The translations under genes and the position numbers were made by a program. Shown here one piece after another: positions 2,941 to 29,835 of a stretch of 48,121 bases of DNA. Source of the DNA: a virus; IMG/VR virus record IMGVR_UViG_3300033052_000113, positions 1-48,121 of that record. The stretch is one strand, 5' to 3'. Position 1 is the stretch's first letter. Each line of letters starts with the position of its first letter. Under the pieces are notes generated by a model. The model did no database searches and had not been told where the DNA came from. It saw nothing but the letters and a program-made list of their open reading frames with translations.

Positions 2941-3453
2941 TTATCGGAAGTCCGCTGACTGCCACATGCAACCGCACTGACCCAGGCGATCACATGTCCG
3001 GAAGGGCAGATCAGGAAAGGATTGAACATCAAAGCGGCGGCCGTCGCATGCGGCTGCATCAGCGCAAGGACCGGCCGCCATCGTGCTCGCTAGGAATTCG
3101 ACGCGCTCTGGGATACCGAGCTTCGCGGCCCGCGAGAAGTACCTGAACTGGACCGCCGCCTTCATAACCGTTGCAGCGATTATGTGCGCCGATTCCAGGG
3201 GGTCGAGCAGGGCAGCTGGCAGTAAGAGGCCTACGAACTCGCGAGTAGCTCTGACATTTGCGCGCAGACCCAGCGCTTTCAGCTCGTCTCGATCCAGCGG
3301 CGTTCCCTCTTTGCGCAACTGGTCTCTAAAGACGAGGCCCTCTCGTTCGCACTGTCGATAGAGCGCGTAGATGCGAACATGGGATCTGTCGTTGACGAGT
3401 CCTGTATTCGTCAAGGCGCGATCTATTGCAGCGCGTTCAGTCTTGGCTTCCAT
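2941..3453 (-). CDS. Hypothetical protein, Cys-rich C-terminus
   Basis: 170 aa, family not recognised. The N-terminal two thirds look helical and charged; the last 45 residues hold five cysteines (CADAAAC, RTCDRLGQCGC) that could form a metal site. The start overlaps the end of the upstream RHH gene by 17 bp, so the two are probably co-translated. A small DNA-binding protein followed by a larger gene recalls antitoxin-toxin or regulator-effector pairs, but no toxin fold is visible. Confidence 0.55.
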   Translation of the reverse strand: MEAKTERAAIDRALTNTGLVNDRSHVRIYALYRQCEREGLVFRDQLRKEGTPLDRDELKALGLRANVRATREFVGLLLPAALLDPLESAHIIAATVMKAAVQFRYFSRAAKLGIPERVEFLASTMAAGPCADAAACDGRRFDVQSFPDLPFRTCDRLGQCGCMWQSADFR

Positions 3454-3649
3454 TCTCCGAAACTAACCCGAGATCAGCCAGCCGTCGCAAGGCCTCTGGG
3501 CGCGACGGCTTCGGCTCAGGTTGTGCGGCGATCCAGGCGTCGAGGCGAGCAAGCTCTTCATCCGTCATACGGACCATCAGCCCCGCCTTTCGACCACCAG
3601 TCGAAGGGCGTCCTCGCGATTTTGGGGTATCCGGTATTGACGGGTCCAT
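3437..3649 (-). CDS. Ribbon-helix-helix type DNA-binding protein
   Basis: 70 aa. After a basic linker (KSRGRPSTGGRK) comes a beta strand (LMVRMTDEELARLDAWI) and a second helix (RPEALRRLADLGL), the pattern of MetJ/Arc-type RHH repressors and antitoxins. The ATG at 3649 was chosen because the longer frame begins in a sequence that does not look like coding. It is the first gene of a two-gene minus-strand unit, divergent from the RAMP-like gene island starting at 3735, so it may regulate either direction. Confidence 0.65.
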   Translation of the reverse strand: MDPSIPDTPKSRGRPSTGGRKAGLMVRMTDEELARLDAWIAAQPEPKPSRPEALRRLADLGLVSENGSQD

Positions 3650-3734
3650 GAATTCAGGATACCCATAATTCAGCTCGGCGCAAGGTTGCCGCCTCGCGCC
3701 GAGCCTAACCATGAAACTTCGGAAGGTGTGTCCG

Positions 3735-3920
3735 ATGCCCCAGGCTGCTCAGCCTAATAGCACGTTCGTGCGCGATCTCCAGGCCATGGCCGACACGGCC
3801 GCGCTCCTCGCCCGCCTGTTCCCACGCCGGAATGGCGGCGCTGCGGGTGAACCGTGCGCCGATCCCGTGACGCCGCGCCGCCCGGCGCCGGCCGCCGCAC
3901 ACGTGCTGGAGGCTGCGTAA
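3735..3920 (+). CDS. Small hypothetical protein
   Basis: 61 aa, not recognised. The ATG at 3735 has a GGAAGG Shine-Dalgarno 8 nt upstream and is preferred over 3711. The N-terminal half is helical (FVRDLQAMADTAALLARLF) and the C-terminal half is Pro/Ala-rich and probably disordered. The stop overlaps the next ATG (TAATG), making it the first gene of a coupled four-gene + unit. Confidence 0.55.
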   Translation: MPQAAQPNSTFVRDLQAMADTAALLARLFPRRNGGAAGEPCADPVTPRRPAPAAAHVLEAA

Positions 3921-4306
3921 TGGTCGCCCCCACTCGTCGCGCCCTGTTTGGAGGGGCTGTCGCGGTTGCCGCGATGGCAGCGCCGGCGATTACCGCTGCG
4001 CTTCCTCGGTTCCCCTCTGAGCTGGAGCGCAGGATCGACAAAGCGCTAGTAGATATGCGGGCGATCAACTGCATGTCCGGCCTATCCGACGACGACCTGT
4101 ACGCGCTGATGAAGCCGGGGAAGGACGCTGTCGACGAGATATTGGCCCTGGACGGCGACGATGCTGATACCCAGCGCCTCCGCCTGAAGGCCATGCGCTG
4201 GTGCCACAGCGACGAGCCGATCGAAGACGGCGACTTCGGTGAATGCACGAACCAGCGGCTGGTCGAGAAAATCCTCCGGTCGGCGCTTAAGGCGGGAGCC
4301 ATCTAA
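3920..4306 (+). CDS. Hypothetical exported protein with Arg-Arg signal
   Basis: 128 aa. The N-terminus TRRALFGGAVAVAAMAAPAI is a signal peptide or anchor with a twin arginine before the hydrophobic stretch, compatible with Tat or Sec export. The mature part is acidic and helical with three cysteines (NCMSG, RWCHS, ECTNQ). The start overlaps the previous stop (TAATG), and its stop overlaps the ATG of the RAMP-like gene by one base, so all are probably translated together. Function unknown. Confidence 0.6.
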   Translation: MVAPTRRALFGGAVAVAAMAAPAITAALPRFPSELERRIDKALVDMRAINCMSGLSDDDLYALMKPGKDAVDEILALDGDDADTQRLRLKAMRWCHSDEPIEDGDFGECTNQRLVEKILRSALKAGAI

Positions 4307-4941
4307 TGGCCGCCGCCAAGTCCTCGACCGCGATCGAGCTCCCCGCCCTCGCGATCCAAACGCTACAGGTGCCGATCGTCGGCGACAGCCCTTTGATCAC
4401 CCACGCCTGGAGCGAGAAGGCCCTGCGCGCCATGGCCGACAAGCAGCAGAAGAAGGCCACCGCCGGGCGCGAGGCCAAGGACCCCTGGGCCGACTTCTGC
4501 GGATCCATGTACTGGCTGTCGGAGCGACCCGAGAAGCCGACCGAGGCCGACGTCGAGGCGGCGCGCTTCGGCTTCCCCGCGATCGCGTTCAAGGCCGCGG
4601 CCGTGACAGCCTGCACCTCGATCGGATCCATCACTAAGGTGGCCGCCCGCCAAGCCTTCCACGTCGAGGGTGAGTTCGTCGAGATCAACGGCCCTCCTCC
4701 GTCGATGCGCGAGGACGTGGCTCGCGTGGGCATGGGCACGGCGGACCTACGCTATCGCGGCGAGTTCTCTCCCTGGTCGGCGGTCCTGACCGTCAAGTTC
4801 AACGCCAACCTGATGTCGGCGGCCCAGGTCGTGAACCTGTTCCAAACTGCAGGCTTCGCGGTCGGCGTTGGCGAATGGCGGCCCGAGCGCGACGGCCCCT
4901 ATGGCCGCTTCCACGTCGCCGCTGATGGGGAGCACGTCTAA
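4306..4941 (+). CDS. Conserved phage protein, RAMP/Cas7-like architecture
   Basis: 211 aa. It is of a conserved phage type usually left unnamed. Features that recall the RAMP (Cas7/Csm3) fold are an N-terminal strand with VPIVGDSPLITH (22-33), a GFPAIAFKAAAVTAC segment (89-103) like the RAMP P-x-S-S-x-K-G-x-x-R region, a strand LTVKFNANL (161-169), and a terminal Gly-rich segment GFAVGVGEWRP...GPYGRFHV (183-204) like the RAMP glycine loop. This similarity is by eye and needs structure comparison. Stop and start overlap both neighbours, and the gene pair ends 16 nt before a 5-nt-period repeat array. It may bind nucleic acid. No Cas nuclease is nearby. Confidence 0.7.
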   Translation: MAAAKSSTAIELPALAIQTLQVPIVGDSPLITHAWSEKALRAMADKQQKKATAGREAKDPWADFCGSMYWLSERPEKPTEADVEAARFGFPAIAFKAAAVTACTSIGSITKVAARQAFHVEGEFVEINGPPPSMREDVARVGMGTADLRYRGEFSPWSAVLTVKFNANLMSAAQVVNLFQTAGFAVGVGEWRPERDGPYGRFHVAADGEHV

Positions 4942-5414
4942 TGACGGTCCGTTATGGATGGCGCCCTGGCGCCCGCATCAGCCTGGACGCCCAGGCGGCA
5001 GGCAAGGAGATGGAGCGAGTCCGCAAGGCCAACGGTGGCTCTCTGTCTCCCGACGTGGTGCTCGACAGCGCGCGGAGCCACAACTCCGCCCTGCACGCGC
5101 ACTTCGAGTGGGACGACGCGGTCGCGGCTGAGCAACACCGGCTCTCGCAGGCGGGTGAGCTGATCCGCGCCATCACCGTGGACATCAGCCGATCCAACGT
5201 CGAACCGCCCAAGACTATCCGCGCCTTCATCAGCGTTGAGCGGGAAGGAGAGCGGTCCTACACTTCAACGGTGCACGCCATGACCGACGCGGATCTCCGC
5301 GCTCAGGTCCTGGCGACGGCATGGCGCGAACTGCTCGCTCTTCGCGAGAAGTACGCAGGGCTCGAACAATTGGCGCGCATCTTTGCCGCCATTGACGAGG
5401 CCCGACCCGCCTAA
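4941..5414 (+). CDS. Conserved partner of the RAMP-like protein
   Basis: 157 aa, conserved phage protein of unknown function. Visible landmarks are an N-terminal basic stretch (YGWRPGARI), the central LHAHFEWDDAVAAEQHRL (91-108), a beta region around FISVEREGERSY, and a C-terminal helical segment AWRELLALREKYAGLEQLA. It overlaps the upstream RAMP-like gene by one base (TAATG), so the two are made together and probably form a complex. The TAA is followed at once by the pentamer array. No catalytic motif is apparent; the helical C-terminus could be an oligomerisation or bridging module. Confidence 0.65.
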   Translation: MTVRYGWRPGARISLDAQAAGKEMERVRKANGGSLSPDVVLDSARSHNSALHAHFEWDDAVAAEQHRLSQAGELIRAITVDISRSNVEPPKTIRAFISVEREGERSYTSTVHAMTDADLRAQVLATAWRELLALREKYAGLEQLARIFAAIDEARPA

Positions 5415-5430
5415 GGGTCGAAACGAGGCA

Positions 5431-5490
5431 GGCTAGGCTGGGCGTGTCCAGGTGCGGCTTGGCAAGGCGCGTTAAGGCATGGTGAGGCGA
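5431..5490 (+). repeat. Degenerate pentanucleotide (GGYNN) array, 12 units
   Basis: Twelve consecutive in-register 5-nt units, for example GGCTA, GGCTG, GGCGT, GGCAA. Position 1 is G in 12/12, position 2 is G in 10/12, position 3 is C in 9/12 and T in 3/12; positions 4-5 vary freely. An extra GGCA precedes it. The period is not a multiple of three, so it is not coding repetition. It lies directly after the RAMP-like gene pair and ends just before a hairpin, so it would be at the 3' end of their transcript. Confidence 0.75.
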
Positions 5491-5491
5491 C

Positions 5492-5519
5492 TGAGGGGTC
5501 AGCGGTAGCTGGCCCCTCA
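5492..5519. terminator. Hairpin between convergent units
   Basis: A 12-bp stem (TGAGGGGTCAGC against GCTGGCCCCTCA, one G-T wobble) with a GGTA loop sits between the + island and the stop of the tail tip gene at 5521. There is no clear T-tract, so it may terminate weakly in both directions or cap the 3' end of the array RNA. Confidence 0.6.
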
Positions 5520-5520
5520 C

Positions 5521-7617
5521 CTATGTCACGGTCGCGGTCACTGGACCCACGGGACCAGAACCATCGCCGTTTTGATTGAAGGCGACGACCCAATATCGGT
5601 ACGTACCTGCTGAGACGCTGTCGGTAATAGACATGACCTCGCCCACGCCACCGACGATCGGCGCCCCCACCGGTGAAGCTGACCCGAACGATGTTGAAGT
5701 GCCTCGGTAGAGGATGAGGTGGTCGAGGTTCAGGCTGGTGGGATTGCGCCAGCTGATCATGGCCGAGCCTGAACCGCCGGTTGCGGCGAAGTCGGTCGGT
5801 TGGCCTGGAGCGATGTCATCGGTCGAAGTCGAGATATCGACCGTGACCGACCATGGCGAAAGCGTCCCGCCACCGGTCTGATATGCGATCTGGAACTCCA
5901 GCGTCGCGTCGGCGGGTAGGAACTCCCCCGTCTCCATCGTCACGCCGGCGTCGGGGTCGATGTCGCCGCCCTGGCGCTCGGTCCAGCTGGTCGCGCCATC
6001 CACACGCCAGCGATAGAACCAGGTCAGGTCGCTGCGGTCGGGGCCGGTACCGTCGATCCGCATGCGCACGCCGTCACCGCCAGTGCCGGTCGATGCATAG
6101 AACGGCGTGAGATCGACGATGACCGGCGCGTCGAGCGCCTCCGGCGTCGGCCTTGCCGCCGTTACGGGCCCATCGCCCTCTTCCGTCACCGGGTTCCAGT
6201 CATAGCGCGCCGCAGACGCCATCTTGTAGGTCCAGGTGATGGATGCGGAGCCCAGGTCGATCGACGCCTCCAGGATTTCGACCACAGCATTGTTGAGGTC
6301 ATCCTGGTCGCTGATGCGAATGCCCACGTAGCGCTCGCCCAGCGCCCGCCGTCCTGACAATGGTGTACGGAAGGTGCCGTCCGGAGCGAAGTTGCGATCC
6401 ATCGCCGCCTTGGCCAGTCGACGCACCTGGCTATTGCCCTGGACGCCCTTGGGCGTGAACTCGCTCGATCGCTCCTCGCCCCGGGCCAGGATGTCCTCTT
6501 CGTTTCGCCAACTGTCGGTTTCCACGGTCGAATAGTTGTTGGCCGGGTCGCAAAAGCTGACCACGAGAGCGTTGATGGCCGAGTCCGGCGTGGGACCAGG
6601 ATTGAAGCTGTAATCGATGATCTCTTCGTCGCCGAAGAAGATCGTCGGCGCCTGGTAACGCCCGGCGCGGATGATGTAGGCGCCGTCGCGGCGCACAGCA
6701 AAGTGGCCATCCATGGCGTTCAGAAGGGTCTGCAGAAGGGTCTTGCGCAGGCTCGTAGCCTCGAACCAAAACCCCACCTCATAGCGCTTCACCGATCCGC
6801 CGGCCTTGAGGGCCACCAATTCGTCGCAGACGTTGGCCTCCGCGGTCAGGATGGCTAGAGCCGGCGCGAAACGCCGGTCCCAATCAGCGCCGTAGCGCCG
6901 CCACAGAATGTTGACGGTCCAGACCACGACATTGCCCGTCTGCCCCCAGGTCGAGGGATCGTTTCGGTTCTGGTCAGGGTCGCGCCAGTCGTAAGCAAGG
7001 TAGCTCGCCTCGCGGGTCAGCTCGGTCGCCGCGCCCGCGGGAAACTGCTTCTGTGCATCGGCCAGCTTCCCGTTCTCGCACCGCAGATAGGTGGATGGAA
7101 CGCCGTCTCCGCGGCTGGTCGAGGGCCAGAGCGAAGGAAACGCCGAGGTGAGGTTGCTGTAGCTAGTCTCGGTGATGGATCCGAGCCGGCTGTAGACGCG
7201 AGCCCGCCCGGTCTCGTAACGTCCGTTGGACAACTGCTGCACGCTGTCGCCGACGATTGTGACCTCGTCATCGTTCAGCCAGGCGCGCTCATAGGCCCCT
7301 ACCGGTCCCTCGGGGTAGGCATAGACCTGATGGTAGCGGTTGCTCTCGGCCTCCCGGAAGGCGACCGCGCCCGAAACCCTCGTCCTGCCTACGCCATAGC
7401 GTCGCGCCGGCCGGGCCTGCTTGAGGTTGGTCTGCGAAGCCGCCGGGTCCGGGATATTCGGCGCCAGGGCCGCGTTGATGGCCAACGGCACGCCGACGGC
7501 CACGGCGGTAAAGGCTGCGAACCCGGCGATCTGGCTCGCAGCGATGCCCGCAGGCGCAAGAGCATTGGCGGCGGCGCCGGCGGCAAGTTGTGCGACATGG
7601 ATCAGGGTTTCGGCCAT
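5521..7617 (-). CDS. Tail tip / host specificity protein (J-like)
   Basis: 698 aa; last gene of the tail module. The N-terminus has a hydrophobic Ala/Gly segment (about 10-55), then NLKQARPARRYGVGRTRVSG (about 65-84) typical of phage tail tip proteins, a central tail-hub region, and two C-terminal fibronectin-III-like repeats ending APGQPTDFAATGGSGSAMISW and RYWVVAFNQNGDGSGP. It probably forms the tip complex that contacts the receptor. The start at 7617 overlaps the stop of the NlpC/P60-like gene (ATGA). The order TMP, two hub proteins, NlpC/P60, J matches the gene-transfer-agent type of siphophage tail tip. Confidence 0.85.
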   Translation of the reverse strand: MAETLIHVAQLAAGAAANALAPAGIAASQIAGFAAFTAVAVGVPLAINAALAPNIPDPAASQTNLKQARPARRYGVGRTRVSGAVAFREAESNRYHQVYAYPEGPVGAYERAWLNDDEVTIVGDSVQQLSNGRYETGRARVYSRLGSITETSYSNLTSAFPSLWPSTSRGDGVPSTYLRCENGKLADAQKQFPAGAATELTREASYLAYDWRDPDQNRNDPSTWGQTGNVVVWTVNILWRRYGADWDRRFAPALAILTAEANVCDELVALKAGGSVKRYEVGFWFEATSLRKTLLQTLLNAMDGHFAVRRDGAYIIRAGRYQAPTIFFGDEEIIDYSFNPGPTPDSAINALVVSFCDPANNYSTVETDSWRNEEDILARGEERSSEFTPKGVQGNSQVRRLAKAAMDRNFAPDGTFRTPLSGRRALGERYVGIRISDQDDLNNAVVEILEASIDLGSASITWTYKMASAARYDWNPVTEEGDGPVTAARPTPEALDAPVIVDLTPFYASTGTGGDGVRMRIDGTGPDRSDLTWFYRWRVDGATSWTERQGGDIDPDAGVTMETGEFLPADATLEFQIAYQTGGGTLSPWSVTVDISTSTDDIAPGQPTDFAATGGSGSAMISWRNPTSLNLDHLILYRGTSTSFGSASPVGAPIVGGVGEVMSITDSVSAGTYRYWVVAFNQNGDGSGPVGPVTATVT

Positions 7618-8036
7618 CAGACCCTCCACGCCCTCACTACCGGCCAGGCCCCAACGGCAATGCCGCCGGACGTCAGCACGGCCCATCCGATGGAGGTTCG
7701 GATTCCGGCCACTTGCTGAGCCCCTTCACGGGTGGGTGCTTCAAGCACGGCGATGTCGCCAGGCACGGGATCGACGGTGCAATACAGGCCGACCTTGGCC
7801 GCGCCGCGGCCGACGAGCGCGGCCAGTCCGCCACCAGCCTGGACCAGCTTCTTGGCCTCCTCGGCCGTTCGGTAGCAGCCGCGCCAGAGCGCGGCCCCAT
7901 CGACGCCCCTTTCTTGCTCCACCCAGCGCGCGACGAAGCCGGCGGTGCAGTCCCACCCCTGGGCATAGTCGATACGCCGGCGCGCGGCGGCGGCGACGTA
8001 GGCGCTCAGTCGCTCGACACGGGTCAGGCCGGCCAT
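7617..8036 (-). CDS. NlpC/P60-like tail peptidase (DUF6950 type)
   Basis: 139 aa. YAQGWDCTAGFVARWVEQ (24-41) contains the Asp-Cys pair that starts the catalytic helix in NlpC/P60-like tail proteins, with Cys30 as candidate nucleophile. GLYCTVDPVPGDIAVLEA and GGIAVG follow the family pattern, but the usual catalytic His is not obvious by eye. It probably opens peptidoglycan locally during DNA entry or acts in tail assembly. The ATG was chosen over a much longer frame because only this part has the domain. Its stop overlaps the next start by 4 bp. Confidence 0.75.
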   Translation of the reverse strand: MAGLTRVERLSAYVAAAARRRIDYAQGWDCTAGFVARWVEQERGVDGAALWRGCYRTAEEAKKLVQAGGGLAALVGRGAAKVGLYCTVDPVPGDIAVLEAPTREGAQQVAGIRTSIGWAVLTSGGIAVGAWPVVRAWRV

Positions 8037-14103: not shown

Positions 14104-14178
14104 TGGCCCGTGGTGCAAAGGACAGCACGACGGTTTCCTAAACTGGGGATGCAGGTTCGATTCCTGCCGGGTCAGCCA
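14104..14178 (+). tRNA. tRNA-Arg (anticodon CCT)
   Basis: 75 nt and folds as a complete cloverleaf. The acceptor stem is TGGCCCG/CGGGTCA (one G-T wobble), the D stem GTGC/GCAC, the anticodon loop TTCCTAA, a 4-nt variable loop, and a perfect T stem GCAGG/CCTGC around TTCGATT. CCA is encoded. The anticodon stem has one A-G mismatch at its base. CCT reads AGG, a rare Arg codon in high-GC hosts. It is on the strand opposite the structural genes, and its CCA abuts the stop codon of the convergent gp10-like gene. Confidence 0.9.
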
Positions 14179-28407: not shown

Positions 28408-29835
28408 CTACAGGTTGTCGAGGGTATAGCTCGACCCCAGGGCCACGATCTCGAATGCCCGCGAAGTGCTGTCTGCGTCGTCATCGTGCTTGGCGGTCGG
28501 GAAGCCTTCCAGGGCGGTGAACCACTTCTCGTTCCAGGGACCGCGCAGCACGTCCACGTTGCCGTGCTCGGCCTGCGACGAGAAGAGCGAGAAGCGGGTC
28601 AACTTGTCGCCGGTCTCGGTGGATGACTTCACGGTGTAGCCGCTGAGCATCTTCACCAGACCGGCGACCTGGCTTTTGCCGGCCTGGCCGGGGTCCTGCG
28701 GCAGCGAGATCGTGCACATGAGGCCGTCTTGGGAGGCGGTGTTCCTGATCAGCTGCTCGACCTTCGCCGGGCTCAGGGCGTCGCTGTGGTTGTCGACCAC
28801 GATGTAGCGGCCATCCGGCGTGCGTCCGATCTTGGTGCTGCTGGTCTCGTCGGGGTCCGGGCTCTCCGCCGTGCGCGGGGTGGCGGCGAGGTCGTAGCCG
28901 CGGCCAAAGACCGTGCCGGCCGGGATGGCGTCCACCACCCTGCACCACGACCGTTGGAAGTAGAGGCCGGCGGCGGGCCGGATCTTCCAGTTGCCACCCA
29001 GCAGGCGCTCGCGCTCGACCAACGGTAGGGCCAGCAGCGACGCCATGTAGGCCGGGTCCGCCGCCATCAGCGCCTTGTTGTCGGTCAGCTTGGCCGGGAT
29101 GAAAGTCAGGGACTTGGCGGGGATCGGGACAGTGTCGCCGTCCTCGTTGACCATCGTGTAGATGGCCAGGTCTTCCGGGCTGTCGGCCCACTTCAGGTCT
29201 TCGCCGACGCGGACGAACCAGCGCAGAACCCCCGACCGCTCCGGGATAGGCAGGCCGGTTTCCTGGTCTATCCACCACTCTATCAGCTTGGCGACCCAGC
29301 TGTCCGCGTCCGGGTTGCAGGTCGCCCGGATGTAGGGCCGCACGCCGCACATTGAGCGGTTGCGGCTGACCATGTACCAGAACTGGACCGCGCTGAAGTG
29401 CGTCAGCTCGTCGAACTTGATCAGGGGGATTTGCGACCCCTGCCAGTTGAACCGGGTCTTGTCGTGTTCGAGGTGGGCGAAGCTGGCCGTCGCGCCGGAC
29501 GGGAACTTCCACGACAGCACATGCTCCTTCGGCTCGGCGCCGACGAGCGGATAGAGATTGGCGCTCTCGTCCCAAAGGCCGCCCTCGTTTCGGATCTGCA
29601 CCGTGGAGCGACGGAAGGTGACCGAACCGAAGCCCGGGTTGTGGATGTGGCGCAGGTCTTCAAGCAGCAGCGCCCAAGTCTTCCCGCCGCCGGCGCCGCC
29701 GCCATAGATCGCGATGTCCGCCGAGGTAGCGAGGAAGGCGGTCTGTGGGCCTGGCTGCGGCTTGATCGTGGTTTCGTCGATCGCCGGGCCGCCGTTGTGG
29801 CCGATGGTGGGCCGCTCGGCGACCATGGCGCTCAT
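28408..29835 (-). CDS. terL: Terminase large subunit
   Basis: 475 aa. The ATPase has Walker A GGGAGGGKT (45-53) and Walker B IKFDELTHF (139-147, Asp142-Glu143). The nuclease domain has the acidic set GRGYDLA (Asp315), LPQDPGQAG (Asp381) and KHDDDADS (about 451-455). It cuts and pumps DNA into the prohead. No intein or truncation is visible. It lies directly downstream of the DUF2280-type small subunit, and its stop meets the shared hairpin. Confidence 0.92.
   Translation of the reverse strand: MSAMVAERPTIGHNGGPAIDETTIKPQPGPQTAFLATSADIAIYGGGAGGGKTWALLLEDLRHIHNPGFGSVTFRRSTVQIRNEGGLWDESANLYPLVGAEPKEHVLSWKFPSGATASFAHLEHDKTRFNWQGSQIPLIKFDELTHFSAVQFWYMVSRNRSMCGVRPYIRATCNPDADSWVAKLIEWWIDQETGLPIPERSGVLRWFVRVGEDLKWADSPEDLAIYTMVNEDGDTVPIPAKSLTFIPAKLTDNKALMAADPAYMASLLALPLVERERLLGGNWKIRPAAGLYFQRSWCRVVDAIPAGTVFGRGYDLAATPRTAESPDPDETSSTKIGRTPDGRYIVVDNHSDALSPAKVEQLIRNTASQDGLMCTISLPQDPGQAGKSQVAGLVKMLSGYTVKSSTETGDKLTRFSLFSSQAEHGNVDVLRGPWNEKWFTALEGFPTAKHDDDADSTSRAFEIVALGSSYTLDNL

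Follow-up and report, generated by a model that had tools for sequence, protein, structure and literature searches.

Gene pair, array and hairpin in the viral window

The window, a viral DNA stretch of 48,121 nucleotides (IMG/VR record IMGVR_UViG_3300033052_000113), carries a compact cassette whose components are collected in Table 1. Inspection of the cassette reveals two genes coupled through a TAATG overlap of stop and start codons, followed by an array with a 5-nt period that ends at a hairpin, an arrangement described in a first-pass annotation of the sequence and found again here. The immediate surroundings consist of phage tail genes, a ribbon-helix-helix (RHH) gene and unassigned ORFs.

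Table 1. Positions of the cassette and flanking features within the window
Feature	Position	Strand	Basis or remark
Small ribbon-helix-helix-like gene, divergent	3437-3712	-	Homologues divergently upstream of vipr
Two small ORFs 5' of vipr	3711-3920 and 3920-4306	+	Same kind of overlap
Predicted vipr gene, RAMP/Cas7-type protein, 211 aa, phrog_4652	4306-4941	+	Profile match and predicted fold
Putative accessory (vap-like) gene, 157 aa, phrog_15946	4941-5414	+	phrog_15946 match, 6e-21
GGCA, unit one base short (4-nt slip, guide-start mark in the clade)	5427-5430	+	Directly 5' of the array
Predicted vrRNA guide tract	5431-5490	+	Twelve in-phase 5-nt units, ten exact GGYNN
Hairpin closing the array	5492-5519	+	12-bp stem, 4-nt GGTA loop, no T run
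Central tail fiber / tail-tip gene of the phage itself (phrog_5616, phrog_31)	5521-7686	-	Orthologous to the gene predicted as target
Predicted target site as present in the phage's own gene (YWVVAFNQNGDG)	5561-5595	-	Guide fit 17/24 letters

The array had been read as twelve in-phase GGYNN units. The number and the phase both hold, but only ten of the units are exact, where the two deviating units carry GTC and GTT in place of GGY. On the plus strand, units 1-6 (5431 onward) are GGCTA, GGCTG, GGCGT, GTCCA, GGTGC and GGCTT, and units 7-12 (to 5490) are GGCAA, GGCGC, GTTAA, GGCAT, GGTGA and GGCGA. The best 12-unit stretch on the opposite strand of the window contains 6 exact units, and order-3 Markov simulations of the window (n = 60) reach at most 7/12 units on either strand, usually 5-6. 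The reported array is confirmed as real. RNA spanning 5415-5525 has a folding energy of -55.7 kcal/mol (z -3.9), and the hairpin, which lies between convergent genes, probably serves as a 3' end or terminator. Scans of the cassette found neither a consensus terminator nor a sigma-70-like promoter; in relatives, the array is closed by a G+C-rich, terminator-like hairpin.

Upstream of the gene pair, the two small ORFs have no relatives among the collected loci. Homologues of the divergent RHH-like gene were found in 32/81 clade loci; in 29 of these 32 they stand upstream of vipr in divergent orientation. Relatives of the gene have a Pfam RHH_1 match, and it is a probable regulator of the cassette. 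Further along the window, a tRNA gene (14104-14175, +; Rfam RF00005, 53 bits) is the sole Rfam match of the scan and is encoded on the other strand from the structural genes around it.

The RAMP-like protein and its relation to VIPR

The PHROG family of the first gene is annotated as being of unknown function, and Pfam and NCBIfam searches with the 211-aa protein returned no match. When a profile of 109 family members was compared with the PDB, it matched 36pp_D, 'SUSP1 Vipr protein', with an E-value of 2.5e-35, and the 211-aa sequence alone matched the same entry at 5e-4. Applied to phage SUSP1, the family model located the gene at 28474-29061, with GGY/NN arrays next to it. Residues G183, G187, G189, R192 and G200 are invariant or near-invariant in the family, of which the Vipr of Peiella sedimenti is 83% identical to that of the window. 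An AlphaFold2 model of the protein (pLDDT 94.9) has as its leading fold matches Csm3 (type III-A) and Cas7 (type VII), with Z-scores of up to 11.3 over ~153 residues; rows from annotated phage records had been left out of the alignments used for structure prediction. A RAMP-like nature had been suggested for this protein, with the comparison of its predicted structure to Cas7/Csm3 set as the refuting test, and the match found here together with the profile match to SUSP1 Vipr confirms it, at the level of profile and model, as a RAMP.

VIPR (Viral Interference Programmable Repeat) was described in an April 2026 preprint (PMC13142463). As presented there, Vipr is a small RAMP that binds a vrRNA of 9-16 GGY/NN units. 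The NN letters read double-stranded DNA by pairing that leaves out one target base between pairs, the skipped base tending toward codon wobble positions, and competing phages, satellites and prophages have genes silenced by this binding (PMC13142463). According to the same preprint, vrRNA production, the 1-nt skip rule, DNA binding and silencing have been demonstrated for relatives of the window system; seven types are distinguished and six vap genes named; the examples include Escherichia phage SUSP1 and a Pseudomonas fulva prophage; VIPR systems are claimed to attack each other; and VIPR may be ancestral to the CRISPR RAMPs (PMC13142463).

Because of its RAMP fold and its profile match to SUSP1 Vipr, we assign the window locus to VIPR, known since April 2026. 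Computational analysis of the window finds the VIPR features of a single small RAMP with a G-rich loop, a guide tract of 9-16 units (here 12, adjoining vipr) and an NN/1-nt-skip reading. As in SUSP1 and the Pseudomonas fulva prophage, the Vipr homologue is phage-encoded and has a neighboring gene, here a putative accessory one, and the predicted target emerges under the 1-nt skip rule with the skip on the codon wobble. Unlike both of these systems, the window has a single guide whose start is marked by a GGCA slip, a divergent RHH gene and a tail-tip gene as predicted target. Unlike SUSP1, where the array is followed by a pseudoknot tail, the window array is followed by a plain hairpin of different sequence, and its accessory gene is unrelated by HMM to Vap1.

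Relatives of the 157-aa accessory gene stand beside vipr in 77/80 related loci. The model of its product (pLDDT 95.1) bears at best a weak winged-helix resemblance (Z of 6.2 or less), HMM comparison with SUSP1 Vap1 gave no relationship, and PDB sequence searches with the single protein or its profile returned nothing significant. A HepT-like match (Pfam, E 0.13) and a PADLOC '2TM effector' match (E 0.001) were both weak and were set aside.

The window protein shares with Csm3 and the type VII Cas7 the RAMP fold with its G-rich loop and, by expectation, a periodic assembly on guide RNA. It is set apart from the class 1 CRISPR RAMPs by an identity of about 8-17% and by the lack of cas genes beside vipr; moreover, the 5-nt repeat would be read with gaps, whereas a CRISPR guide is contiguous. 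The earlier proposal of a Cas7-like system without Cas nucleases agrees with our searches, where PADLOC, Pfam and NCBIfam gave no Cas matches for the cassette proteins and the immediate locus holds the 5-nt array alone, with no CRISPR repeat-spacer array or cas operon. A 5-nt period with two free positions also resembles the targets of TRAP, and the array could in principle be a lattice to which an annealing protein or an RNA-binding regulator of the TRAP type attaches, with the NN letters as mere spacers. The fold and Vipr matches led us to drop both versions, and we regard such a lattice as highly improbable: the fold is of the Cas7 type, decoded guides match in-frame rival genes, and the family includes a characterized RNA-guided protein (PMC13142463).

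Array-protein linkage and guide register across viral loci

The association between array and protein was examined from both sides. With the 211-aa protein as query, 80 related viral loci were retrieved, and in 61/80 GGYNN runs accompany the relatives of the gene pair, almost without exception on the same strand as the genes. The array lies most often downstream of gene 2 and is also seen upstream of or between the genes. In the reverse direction, scanning viral contigs blindly for runs of twelve exact GGYNN units returned at least 120 loci, and the Vipr family is present in 88 of the 120 listed. Of the array segments in those 88 listed loci, 340 share the strand of the gene and 6 lie opposite, with the nearest array commonly <100 bases from the gene; among the remaining 32 listed loci, several have the array near the contig end. 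Arrays and the Vipr family are reciprocally linked, a result new in the present analysis and one that answers the earlier question of whether arrays are conserved next to homologous gene pairs. A reciprocal, strand-biased association across >140 viral loci gives independent support for the published link.

Relatives differ from the window in guide number, with several guides arranged head to tail and a unit one base short at each junction. Among the 4-nt slips in arrays of the collected loci, 537/805 consist of GGCA followed by GGC or GGT, and run length between slips peaks at 9-13 units. Slips of this kind are seen in the arrays of L001, L003-L006, L021, L032, L035, L059, L065, L068, L071 and L206. 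In the window, the decoded target match begins at the first unit 3' of the GGCA at 5427-5430, and the slip possibly marks the register of each guide or the point at which it is processed. Staggered arrays are mentioned in a supplementary figure of the VIPR preprint, so this slip grammar may already be known (PMC13142463). With that reservation, the elements new here are the reciprocal linkage, the predicted target, the fit of a relative's guide to rival accessory genes, the slip grammar of the clade, an accessory protein unrelated to SUSP1 Vap1, and the RHH neighbor.

Two further observations concern the relatives. L064, L068, L071 and L072 carry very long GGYNN arrays of several hundred bases, with at least 10 guide-length runs. 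In six relatives (L206:5313, L001:4696, L003:5022, L004:4364, L032:4383 and L065:4318), the next ORF 3' of the array looks, by eye, like the beginning of a tape-measure gene, and Gordonia phage ODay has the cassette just before its tape-measure gene.

The guide, its predicted target and guides of relatives

The NN letters of the window guide are TA, TG, GT, CA, GC, TT, AA, GC, AA, AT, GA and GA, which with a 1-nt skip read as the codons Y-[CW]-V-[HQ]-A-[FL]-[NK]-A-[NK]-[IM]-[DE]-[DE]. The full 24-letter target pattern has no exact match in the viral contigs and no match in the window's own record. Restricting the pattern to units 1-9 (18 letters) identified one viral contig, L217, as the one 18/18 match among the matches listed. 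The L217 site lies in frame in a 770-aa ORF with the skip on the wobble, and this ORF is the orthologue of the window tail-tip gene, both being assigned to phrog_5616 and central tail fiber J. The two proteins are 40% identical over 669 aa, and the tail module is syntenic; neither vipr nor the accessory gene was found in the 12-kb L217 locus. The predicted target codons, YWVQAFNAN, are C-terminal in the tail-tip protein, in a stretch that appears FN3-like from its sequence and lies at homologous positions in the rival (YWVQAFNANGNGSGPVGP) and in the window (YWVVAFNQNGDGSGPVGP). Overall, the guide fits L217 in 20/24 letters, with 18/18 in units 1-9, whereas units 10-12 do not fit. A second contig, L222, has a site identical to that of L217, where the pattern scans list L217 only.

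The misfit of units 10-12 means that the true target may differ from L217 in these units. It also speaks for a less probable alternative, namely that an unsampled element was the one against which the guide was acquired, and that the L217 match is coincidental or the relic of a related sequence. Patterns of 18 letters yield a few chance matches in these contigs, and units 4-12 gave three, all unrelated and with 4-5 mismatches over the full guide, which were rejected as chance. Weighing against coincidence, the sole units 1-9 match among those listed falls in the orthologue of the neighboring gene, at homologous codons and with the skip on the wobble. A looser scan with units 1-8 returned 12 stretches, where the eleven besides L217 are unrelated and fit worse, and the orthologous sites in Caulobacteraceae genomes and one other contig fit in 13-19/24 letters. 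Among 390 genomes of the Caulobacteraceae, the family of Peiella sedimenti, no target with two or fewer mismatches was found, and a single 3-mismatch match was dismissed as being at chance level. These 390 genomes include tail-tip relatives with identities of up to 74%, and the host of the window phage is probably a member of the Caulobacteraceae.

Since the only window site with seven or fewer mismatches lies in frame in the gene next to the array, the guide could instead autoregulate the phage's own tail-tip gene. We consider this unlikely. The own site fits in 17/24 letters, with its 7 mismatches in units 4, 8, 10 and 12, compared with 20/24 and a perfect fit in units 1-9 for the rival; an equally good own-genome site arises by chance for 12% of shuffled guides; and the targets published for VIPR are rivals (PMC13142463).

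We favor, with a probability of about 0.93, a reading in which the locus is a single-guide VIPR of a temperate siphophage that silences the tail-tip gene of a related rival, L217, while its own gene is spared. This reading builds on VIPR membership, array conservation and a target match obtained from sequence and model comparisons in the present analysis. From the SUSP1 work we infer transcription, complex formation and silencing at the window locus. The region after the operon would be transcribed to give a vrRNA with 12 GGY/NN units and the hairpin at its end, and Vipr subunits (4306-4941) would coat this RNA so that GGY is held and each NN pair left exposed. The pairs would then read double-stranded DNA with one target base skipped between them, so that the skip would fall on codon wobble positions. 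At the predicted target, the C-terminal FN3-like codons of the tail-tip gene in the related siphophage L217, binding would silence the gene of a co-infecting or resident rival, and the own gene would be spared through its 7 mismatches. A probable role of the 157-aa partner is to aid DNA binding or repression; the operon is probably under the control of the divergent RHH protein.

The idea that the variable dinucleotides carry information is borne out for relatives by the VIPR preprint (PMC13142463); for the window itself, decoding of the guide yields a plausible target. The functional guess of the first-pass annotation is thus supported as substantially right, but it had already been published (PMC13142463). 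With the window locus, a minimal one-guide VIPR, the predicted targets extend to a structural tail gene, a natural target open to direct testing. The VIPR cassette itself seems to favor the tail module.

A broader role for VIPR in rivalry over the host-recognition apparatus appears slightly better than an even proposition. In this reading, the one guide, located between the phage's own tail genes, would silence a competitor's tail-tip orthologue at a conserved FN3 motif from which the own copy has diverged, guides of sister phages joined by the GGCA 4-nt slip would attack the vap genes of rivals, and a divergent RHH protein would exert control over the cassette. Decodable guides of the collected loci were searched against the same loci. 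All clade guides taken together show no general excess of matches to vipr or vap genes when compared with shuffled guides, the exceptions being L059 and, to a weak degree, L031, so guides targeting vap genes represent one strong case and not a rule. A 3-nt-skip search of the collected loci mostly returned the arrays themselves, and a perfect 0-skip match was an AC repeat; both were discarded. The weaker case, L031:4203, matches another conserved vap motif in 16/18 letters. The strong case is the guide L059:4182 (4182-4231; GG, CT, AT, CG, TC, GT, CT, GC, AT, TA), which under a 1-nt skip matches the vap genes of L024, L026, L034, L035, L036 and L066 in 19/20 letters, in frame at the conserved codons G-L-I-R-S-V-V-A-I-Y and with the skip on the wobble, versus 15/20 (5 mismatches) for its own vap gene. 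This predicted VIPR-against-VIPR match agrees with the mutual attack put forward in the preprint (PMC13142463).
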